DNA of 47,621 nucleotides. Source: Nitrospirae bacterium JdFR-81 (lineage in GTDB: Bacteria > Nitrospirota > Thermodesulfovibrionia > UBA6902). Below, one piece after another: positions 5,881 to 11,185 of the stretch. The DNA lies in the NCBI GenBank assembly GCA_002011735.1, contig MTOQ01000039.1, positions 1-47,621 on the forward strand, given 5' to 3'. Position 1 is the first letter of the stretch. Each line of letters begins with the position of its first letter. Made by a program: the position numbers and the translations under genes. A model generated the notes under the pieces. That model searched no databases and had not been told where the DNA came from. It saw only the letters and a program-made list of their open reading frames with translations.

Positions 5881-6273
5881 TTATCTCTTGGAGAACTGGA
5901 AACGCTTCCTGGCCTTCTTCTGACCGTATTTCTTTCTTTCCACGACCCTTGGATCCCTGGTCAAGAGTCCCTCTTTCTTCAGTTTGCTCCTGAAGTCAGG
6001 ATTGGCCTTTACGAGTGCCCGTGCGATACCGTGTCTGATGGCCTGGGCCTGACCACTTATCCCTCCACCCCTCACCCTTACCATTATGTCATATTTGCCA
6101 TTTACTCCAACCACATTGAGGGGTTGCTGGACGATCATCTTCATGGTTTCGTATGGGAAGTATCTGTCAAAGGGGAGTTTATTAATTGTGATGTTGCCCT
6201 TCCCAGGCCTCAGGAATACCTGGGCAACGGATGTCTTTCTTCTGCCTGTAGCGTTATATTCTATCTCTGCCAT
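5881..6273 (-). CDS. rpsI: 30S ribosomal protein S9
   Basis: 130 aa; '[26 protein letters not shown]', C-terminus '[18 protein letters not shown]'. Confidence 0.98.
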
Positions 6274-6279
6274 ATCCCT

Positions 6280-6720
6280 TTACGCTCCTTTGCTGAGATT
6301 AAGGATCTCTGGTTTCTGGGCCTGATGGGGATGCTCTGGACCCCTGTAGACCTTCAGCTTCTTCAGCTGTCTTCTCCCAAGTTTATTCTTTGGTAACATG
6401 CCCCTTACGGCTGATATGATTATCCTCTCAGGGGCTTCCTTCATCAGGTCTTTTGCGGATTCCTTCTTGATACCACCAGGATAACCCGAATGGTGGTAAT
6501 ACACCTTTGTATCAAGCTTATTACCTGTGAACCTTATCTTCTTAGCATTTATTACAATCACATAGTCACCTGTATCCACATGGGGTGTATAGATGGGCTT
6601 TGTCTTGCCCCTGAGGATCGAGGCGATCCTGGAGGCAAGCCTGCCAACAACCATATCGGTGGCATCCACGACATACCATTTCTTCTTTACTTCTGATGAC
6701 TTAGCAAAGCTCGTCTTCAT
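6280..6720 (-). CDS. rplM: 50S ribosomal protein L13
   Basis: 146 aa; '[25 protein letters not shown]', '[32 protein letters not shown]'. Confidence 0.98.
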
Positions 6721-6820: not shown

Positions 6821-6850
6821 ATAATAATTTAAAACCATCATATTTGTCAA
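6821..6850 (-). promoter_or_regulatory. Candidate sigma70 promoter for rplM-rpsI
   Basis: Minus strand TTGACA (6850-6845) - 18 nt - TATTAT (6826-6821), between the candidate selenoprotein stop and rplM. Confidence 0.6.
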
Positions 6851-6856
6851 TGTCCA

Positions 6857-7024
6857 TTATGCCCTGTCACATGATATGTAGGATAATTTCTCCCATGTCC
6901 TTTCATCGATCTCCTCTATATATTCTTGGATCGTATAGGCCCTGCCGCACACCGTGCAGCTGAGACTCACACTCCTTCAGCCAACAGAGAGCCTTAGCCC
7001 TCCGCCACACACTTTACATTTCAT
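6857..7024 (-). CDS. Candidate selenoprotein: small dual-CxxC protein with in-frame UGA (missed by ORF track)
   Basis: Manual translation: MKCKVCGGGLRLSVG[UGA]RSVSLSCTVCGRAYTIQEYIEEIDERTWEKLSYISCDRA*, two CxxC motifs either side of the TGA at 6977-6979, continuous frame to TAA at 6857-6859. Confidence 0.75.
6940..6964 (-). promoter_or_regulatory. Candidate bacterial SECIS hairpin
   Basis: GCUGCAC-GGU-GUGCGGC: 7-bp stem (one U-G wobble) with GGU loop; outer CUC/GGG pairs across an A-A mismatch; loop begins 23 nt after the UGA. Confidence 0.65.
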
Positions 7025-7109
7025 GTTGCAATCTCTCTTGACCATATTCTATAATCGTTACAAATCTCTGTTCCTATTATACAAAAATAAATCCAATAGG
7101 TCGAAATAG

Positions 7110-8090
7110 GTGAAATCAACGGTAAAGAAGAGTAAAGAACAACTCCTCCAGGAACTTGCAGATTTGCGTGAGGAGGTTAATAACCTGCGCAGGGAGCTCC
7201 GCAGGCTGAAGCGAGCTGAGAAGAGGCTCAGGGAGAGTGAGGAGACATTTCGTTCACTTATTGAGTCAGCCGACGATTCTATATATTTAGTAGACAGGCA
7301 CTACCGATATTTATTTATAAATAAAAAGCACCTATCCCGTCTCGGTCTGTCAGAGGCAGATTATAAGGGCCGTTCATATAAGGACTTCCACGCCCCTGTT
7401 GAGGTGAGGGAGTTTGTCAGGAAGGTGGATTATGTATTCAGGACCGGTGAGCCCATCAGCTATGAGTACAAGAGCATCAGGGAGAATAAGTATTTCCTCC
7501 AGACCTTCAGCCCTGTCAAGGATTCAGAGGGCAGGATAGTGGCAGTTGGAATAATCTCTAAGGATATATCTGATCGTAAGGAGATGGAGGAGGAGCTCCG
7601 TCAGCTTTCACTCACTGATGAACTTACAGGCCTCCTGAACAGGCGTGGGTTCTTCACGCATGTCGAGCAGTATCTAAAGATGGTCAAGCGTCAGGGGATC
7701 GGAGTGTTTATGCTCTATGCAGACCTTGACAACCTTAAATATATTAATGATAAATTTGGCCACAAAGAAGGCGATTATGCTATTATGCAGGTAGCAAGGA
7801 TCCTTAAGGAGAACTACCGTGAGTCAGATATCATCGCCCGCATAGGTGGTGACGAGTTTGTGGTTATCCCGGTAGGCTGGGTAGGAAATTGTATAGATAT
7901 AATCACATCCCGCCTCCAGAAGGCTATAAAAAACTACAACAAGGAAGTTCACAGGGGTTATAAATTATCGGTAAGCACAGGTGTGGCATTTTACGATCCA
8001 TCAAGGCCCTGCTCTATCGATGAACTCCTCGCCATGGCAGACAAAAAGATGTACGAGGACAAGAGTCGTAAAAAGAGGCTTTCACCTTAA
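7110..8090 (+). CDS. PAS domain-containing diguanylate cyclase (GGDEF)
   Basis: Coiled-coil N-term, PAS 'ETFRSLIESADDSIYLVDRHYRYLFIN', GGDEF 'ARIGGDEFVVIP' with RxxD I-site 'RESD' five residues upstream. GTG start. Confidence 0.93.
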   Translation: MKSTVKKSKEQLLQELADLREEVNNLRRELRRLKRAEKRLRESEETFRSLIESADDSIYLVDRHYRYLFINKKHLSRLGLSEADYKGRSYKDFHAPVEVREFVRKVDYVFRTGEPISYEYKSIRENKYFLQTFSPVKDSEGRIVAVGIISKDISDRKEMEEELRQLSLTDELTGLLNRRGFFTHVEQYLKMVKRQGIGVFMLYADLDNLKYINDKFGHKEGDYAIMQVARILKENYRESDIIARIGGDEFVVIPVGWVGNCIDIITSRLQKAIKNYNKEVHRGYKLSVSTGVAFYDPSRPCSIDELLAMADKKMYEDKSRKKRLSP

Positions 8091-10126: not shown

Positions 10127-11185
10127 TTATACGGCCATTGCCTCGGGGTGTTTTTTCTCTATCCTGTAACGTTCGATTACTGGATCACTTGCTGGGTGGG
10201 CTTTCATTGTAAAGCGCTTGTCTCCCACAAAGACTGTCACGTCCACAGATGGCAGGTATCGGGCATCAGAGTATCTGGCACATAATGAAGCGGCAAGGTT
10301 TATCGTCTCATGTGTCACCTTTCCCCTGATAAGAGTTATCGGACTGCCAAAACCCTCGACCTTAAGCCTTATGTCATTCCTGTCTGCGAGTGACAGTATC
10401 TGCAGGTTTTCCTCTCTGTTTCTGCCCACGATGATCTTACACTCATGAGATGGCCTGAAGTGTCTTCCAAGTCTCAGCAGTTCAATATCATTAAAACCGG
10501 GATCTGGATTGTGGGTTAGGAGATCCTTCAGTCTATAGGAGTAGTTTGGATCTGTGAGCAGACATCCACCTGCAGGTGAGGCATAATCTGTTAGGCCAAA
10601 CTCCCTTGCAAGGGCCATCTGTGGTTTTCTTGATCTGCCCCTGAAGTCATAGAGCAGGTCACGATTGACGATCCCCTTCTCCTCAGGTATGGTCTTCTTC
10701 AGTAGCTTGGCACTCAAGGGCCTTAGCACATAGCCCTCAACACCTGCCTCTCTGTCTATCACAGGGAAGGTATCCCTCCTCTGGCTCATCGGCCTCTGGC
10801 CGAGGACCTCACCTGTTATGAGGAAGTCTGCGCCTATCATATCCATCATCTCCTTTGCCTCTTTTAACATGAGGATCCTGCAGTCAATACAGGGGTTCAT
10901 ATTCTTGCCATGGCCGAATTTTGGGTTTTTTACTATCTCGAGGAATTTATCGGACAGGTGGCATAGTTTTACCTTGAATCCGAACTTCTCCGCCGTGGGG
11001 AAGGGATTGGCTGAACAGGATGACCTGTCCCCGATATTGCATCCGAAATGGTTCAGGAAGGTTACGGCGGTCACCTCTATCCCCTGCCTCATCACGATCA
11101 GGATGGCAAGCGAACTATCAAGACCACCTGAAAACAGGGCAACGGCCTTTCGCCTCAAAGAGCCTTCTCCTGCCATAGAACCCAT
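10127..11185 (-). CDS. ThiI/MnmA-like tRNA thiolation ATP-pyrophosphatase family protein
   Basis: PP-loop 'KAVALFSGGLDSSLAILIV', 'NPCIDCRILMLKEAKEMMDMIGADFLITGEVLGQRPMSQ', 'SPAGGCLLTDPNYSYRLKDLL'. Confidence 0.8.
   Translation of the reverse strand: MGSMAGEGSLRRKAVALFSGGLDSSLAILIVMRQGIEVTAVTFLNHFGCNIGDRSSCSANPFPTAEKFGFKVKLCHLSDKFLEIVKNPKFGHGKNMNPCIDCRILMLKEAKEMMDMIGADFLITGEVLGQRPMSQRRDTFPVIDREAGVEGYVLRPLSAKLLKKTIPEEKGIVNRDLLYDFRGRSRKPQMALAREFGLTDYASPAGGCLLTDPNYSYRLKDLLTHNPDPGFNDIELLRLGRHFRPSHECKIIVGRNREENLQILSLADRNDIRLKVEGFGSPITLIRGKVTHETINLAASLCARYSDARYLPSVDVTVFVGDKRFTMKAHPASDPVIERYRIEKKHPEAMAV

Follow-up and report, generated by a model that had tools for sequence, protein, structure and literature searches.

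The minus-strand open reading frame at positions 7024-6857 of the window (the whole 47,621-nucleotide stretch of Nitrospirae bacterium JdFR-81 DNA that was analysed) is predicted, almost with certainty, to encode a genuine selenoprotein of family NF041197 (OS_HP3). The family itself is already known and the ORF is a further member of it. Read on the minus strand, 7024-6857 gives MKCKVCGGGLRLSVG-U-RSVSLSCTVCGRAYTIQEYIEEIDERTWEKLSYISCDRA-TAA, with a single in-frame UGA at 6979-6977. The original prediction, namely a frame in which a TGA is flanked by two CxxC motifs and which ends in TAA, matched the window sequence exactly, and its placement between rplM and a GGDEF gene was borne out by the gene layout: a GGDEF/PAS-type gene (7110-8090, plus strand, label assigned by eye) lies on one side and rplM-rpsI (6720-5881, minus strand) on the other. 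It was also right that ORF callers split the gene, as the 15-aa product preceding the UGA falls under gene-caller limits; standard gene finders would miss this ORF in the JdFR-81 genome. The features considered here are as follows.

6857..7024, minus strand: predicted selenoprotein ORF, 55 aa, ATG 7024-7022, stop TAA 6859-6857; NF041197 match
6977..6979, minus strand: in-frame UGA, residue 16, predicted to be read as Sec; 123 UGA, 8 Cys codons and no others in 131 distinct homologues
7007..7018, minus strand: first CxxC (C3-C6); both Cys invariant, 131/131
6947..6958, minus strand: second CxxC (C23-C26), coded within the putative SECIS stem; invariant, 131/131
6940..6964, minus strand: putative bacterial SECIS hairpin; upper stem of 7 bp (6960-6954/6950-6944), loop GGU (6953-6951), 3-bp lower stem beneath
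7076..7104, minus strand: promoter-like TCGACC-17-TATAAT on the upstream side of the ORF; consensus match alone
6821..6850, minus strand: promoter-like TTGACA-18-TATTAT between the ORF and rplM; consensus match alone
6280-6720 (rplM) and 5881-6273 (rpsI), minus strand: conserved downstream neighbours in this lineage, from neighbourhood comparison

A second in-frame ATG occurs at 7045, seven codons 5' of the ATG at 7024. The latter, directly preceded by AAGAGAGA, is the likelier start.

Family membership was assessed with the NCBIfam model NF041197, "dual CXXC motif small (seleno)protein". With C written for U, the ORF scored 63.7 bits (cut-off 40) and aligned to profile positions 1-52 of 53, a full-length match. 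The score remained above the cut-off when the UGA position was masked as X (54.7 bits), and also when the 38 residues 3' of the UGA were scored by themselves (43.9 bits). A six-frame profile search across all 2.05 Mb of the genome, with stops read through, returned this ORF as its only match (E=7.3e-14, 53.2 bits), indicating that the ORF did not arise by chance. The family of small dual-CxxC (seleno)proteins invoked in the original prediction exists, and the ORF displays its characteristic residues C3, C6, U16, C23 and C26, with Sec/Cys placed between the two CxxC motifs. The window protein resembles the NF041197 members in length, in the position of Sec and in scoring above the equivalog cut-off, with no difference of substance, and is divergent in sequence (40-62% identity to the homologues aligned).

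NF041197 is listed as OS_HP3 in a 2026 review, where it is attributed to Zhang and Gladyshev 2007 (PMC13188914), and OS_HP3 already figures among the catalogued selenoprotein families (PMC13188914, PMC9312934). Its source is the Delta 1 symbiont of Olavius algarvensis, a deltaproteobacterium, and a second entry of the same review, hypothetical protein DW, shares accession NF041197 (PMC13188914). OS_HP3 and the window protein have this accession in common, as well as a single Sec per protein. The first report of OS_HP3 concerned a deltaproteobacterium, whereas Nitrospirota was the source of the named members traced in this analysis: family genes with a named source came almost all from Nitrospirota/Nitrospirae, many of them from Thermodesulfovibrionales. 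Since the alignment used for the phylum search was built from Nitrospirota members, this phylum range is a lower bound. A recent predictor, deep-Sep, overlooked an OS_HP3 gene in one genome (PMC12013277), suggesting that small members of the family are still under-called. The present case illustrates that reading a sequence without tools can uncover a true selenoprotein whose frame is broken in two by gene callers.

Comparison of homologues provided the main evidence for selenocysteine. In a search of the nearest genomes, the gene was found in 47 of 60, each copy having exactly one TGA in the same alignment column. Among 131 distinct family genes, 123 had UGA at this position and the remaining 8 a Cys codon (TGT or TGC); Sec or Cys therefore occupies the position in all 131 homologues, a conservation on which the original prediction depended. 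It depended equally on conservation past the TGA, and this was also observed: over 144 related pairs, pN/pS was 0.219 before the UGA and 0.202 after it (0.22 and 0.20), corresponding to purifying selection of equal strength on both sides. In a tree built without the UGA column, at least three Sec/Cys exchanges were required by well supported branches, and five were obtained by parsimony. All four CxxC cysteines were invariant (131/131). Residues Y35, E38, D40, W44, R50 and R54 were kept in more than 90% of the family genes and Cys52 in 87%; the window protein has I at position 50, where the family has the conserved R50. A search for homologues on plasmids, phages and viral contigs found none, and there is thus no sign of a mobile or phage gene.

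The putative SECIS hairpin, GCUGCAC-GGU-GUGCGGC, has its stem 16 nt and its loop 23 nt from the UGA, with an MFE of -14.1 kcal/mol in the window fold. A published model of the bacterial element specifies a loop of 3-9 nt, a stem of 4-16 bp, a spacing of 16-37 nt, an MFE of -7.5 or less and a G among the first two nucleotides of the loop (PMC13188914). The window hairpin fits this model (3-nt loop opening with G, 7-bp stem, 23-nt spacing). Taken by itself, the window sequence was not more stable than its dinucleotide shuffles (z -0.25), and the case for a SECIS is consequently one of comparison. Across 79 UGA genes, 508 of 553 stem pairs (92%) were formed in a fixed register, versus 416.4 +/- 6.8 (75%) in synonymous recodings. 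At the two Cys codons of the second CxxC, both of them part of the stem, TGC was used in 151 of 158 cases in these genes, versus 123 of 231 at the other three Cys (p=4e-22). In the six Cys genes examined, 35 of 42 pairs were formed versus 32.3 +/- 2.0 after recoding, that is, little or no excess, and TGC and TGT were equally used in the second CxxC. On this codon evidence, the predicted hairpin, which overlaps the second CxxC, is maintained in the UGA genes by their choice among synonymous codons. The comparative set, with its 123 Sec and 8 Cys forms and its putative SECIS in the second-CxxC codons, indicates a family widespread in Nitrospirota, magnetotactic lineages included, and offers clean material for studies of function.

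The selenocysteine machinery, whose presence in the same genome had been proposed as a check, was found there in full (selA, selB, selC and selD). Genes selA (619 bits) and selB (364 bits) adjoin, and the tRNA-Sec gene (selC) is nearby on the same contig. The host selD (L008:1501-2415) has itself one in-frame UGA at the position of the active-site Cys (KAAG-U-AAK), so that SelD is probably also a selenoprotein here. Between selB and selC, on the same strand, lies a 353-aa ORF with Pfam DUF6866 N and C domains (L001:3387-4448).

Among 396 genomes of the phylum, the family was found in 152 and selA in 177; both were present in 142, the family only in 10, selA only in 35 and neither in 209. Fisher's test for this co-occurrence gave p=5e-60, a value which overstates independence because the genomes are related. 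The family-only genomes included two with Cys forms (G235 and G284) and three with a full-length selB (G029, G254 and G337). The UGA form occurred without selA or full-length selB in G002, G095, G195, G260 and G413 from the phylum draw, and in G003 from the near relatives. As the assemblies are fragmented, these six absences are likely due to contig gaps, yet G195 is rated 99% complete.

The UGA may be read in other ways. An ordinary stop, with a 15-residue peptide as the product and an unrelated or degenerate frame (a pseudogene) beyond it, would agree with the standard code tables, which end the frame there, and with a product too short for gene callers. It is opposed by purifying selection that is as strong past the UGA as before it, by the maintenance of the UGA in 123 distinct genes with replacement by Cys only, in 8, and by the match of the post-UGA half alone to the family model. 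Its probability is negligible, and the pseudogene was rejected on the pN/pS after the UGA and on the conservation of the downstream half in homologues. A frame that stays open once the UGA is read through could also reflect a genome-wide reassignment of UGA (Trp or Gly code), the ORF being then a normal gene under another code. However, UGA terminates 21 of the window's 39 open frames that are 200 codons or longer, and TGA is the true terminal stop of 50 of the 123 UGA genes, which thus have UGA both as sense codon and as terminator; the alternative residue is invariably Cys, and tRNA-Sec and selA/B/D are present in the host. Reassignment, which hardly deserves any credence, was rejected because UGA ends long frames of the window as well as the homologues' own frames. 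Purifying selection past the UGA, together with the terminal UGA codons, excludes a pseudogene as well as an altered genetic code.

Two further readings arise from the genomic neighbourhood. In most genomes of the host's GTDB family whose contig reaches that far, the gene is followed on the same strand by rplM-rpsI-argC-argJ (in a few of them, an overlapping frame was picked at the rplM position, with argC still at the expected distance); the arrangement 5' of rplM-rpsI is rare beyond this family. The UGA and its SECIS might accordingly serve chiefly as a leader sensing selenium for the rplM-rpsI operon, the protein being secondary: in most of the host's family, the ORF lies about 100-150 nt 5' of rplM, and outside it the gene stands 5' of rpsT, asnS or gltX. 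In many lineages, however, the gene downstream is an unrelated one or lies on the opposite strand; purifying selection acts on the protein, which persists as a Cys form, and a separate promoter-like site (6821-6850) precedes rplM, which may thus be under its own promoter. A leader function is very improbable. The protein could also be a redox or metal-responsive factor associated with translation or the ribosome, instead of a free oxidoreductase, which would refine its role and is compatible with a selenoprotein. Its gene adjoins rplM-rpsI, rpsT, asnS, gltX, aspS (upstream) or a YacP-type NYN nuclease gene in several lineages, and its profile bears a weak similarity to eS27, aIF2-beta and RpoP-type zinc ribbons. 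This neighbour pattern is nonetheless a post hoc lead only, other lineages show cytochromes, UbiD, PurH or no co-directional neighbour, and weak matches of this kind arise for any short zinc ribbon. We consider such a factor unlikely. At a slightly lower probability still, the gene's repeated placement beside rplM-rpsI, rpsT, asnS, gltX, aspS and yacP-like genes in different lineages suggests a Sec-bearing zinc ribbon acting alongside the translation machinery, which might for instance sense redox state or metals on ribosomal proteins or aminoacyl-tRNA synthetases. Assigning function by operon context was rejected, the neighbourhood being conserved only within lineages; names of neighbours beyond those tested with Pfam were read from the sequences by eye.

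Another context met in other lineages is a CxxCxxCC-domain gene with a YacP-type NYN nuclease gene. At many non-rplM loci (e.g. L110, L155 and L162), the CxxCxxCC-domain gene is located downstream, often beside the YacP-type gene, and a second Cys-rich protein is encoded divergently upstream. A functional link of these Cys-rich neighbours to metal handling is possible.

Returning to the selenoprotein, SelB and Sec-tRNA-Sec, drawn by the SECIS hairpin just 3' of the UGA, would, to judge by conservation and codon choice, insert Sec at residue 16. The AlphaFold2 model (mean pLDDT 75.3) comprises strands at 9-14 and 19-23 followed by a helix carrying W44, with Sec16 in the turn between the strands and one CxxC pair on either side of them. 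Together with the invariant residues, it points to a C4 zinc ribbon as the probable fold. The four invariant Cys would hold a structural zinc, and in this medium-confidence model Sec16 would occupy the tip of a beta-hairpin lying between the two metal knuckles. As a fold search against the PDB gave no match at E<=0.001, we infer the zinc ribbon and the position of Sec; the best matches, zinc ribbons of Pol III subunits (E about 0.16), were not significant. A sequence search of the PDB produced only weak zinc-finger matches over short stretches, and all Pfam matches of the window protein were below cut-off. As in the proposed fold, two CxxC knuckles round a beta-hairpin are found in the C4 zinc ribbons of Trm112, HypA, RPC10/Rpb9 type and aIF2-beta, a sub-threshold and non-significant similarity. 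Unlike these ribbons, the selenoprotein family has a conserved C-terminal W/R/C region, and selenocysteine is not known in any of them. For Sec, redox chemistry or metal ligation is a somewhat favoured role, Sec16 being most likely an exposed redox-active nucleophile or an auxiliary ligand of a metal or metalloid.

Sec16 might possibly be paired with the mostly conserved C-terminal Cys52. The latter was present in 110 of the 123 UGA genes versus 4 of the 8 Cys genes (p=0.01), an association which is not independent of phylogeny, because a single clade holds all four losses among the Cys forms. In the magnetotactic Magnetobacterium clade (L095, L097, L098 and L208), Cys replaces Sec and the C-terminal Cys52 is also absent; selA and selB are still present in two genomes of this clade with the Cys form (G369 and G279).

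Elsewhere in the window, an Rfam search retrieved 23S rRNA only: the 3' part of a 23S rRNA gene occupies the contig end (1-916, plus strand), and an rpoD-like sigma factor gene (1051-2475) is close behind. At 10127-11185, on the minus strand, a 352-aa protein combines ThiI-like and NFACT-R_2 (RNA-binding) domains and resembles an unusual tRNA-thiolation-like enzyme.
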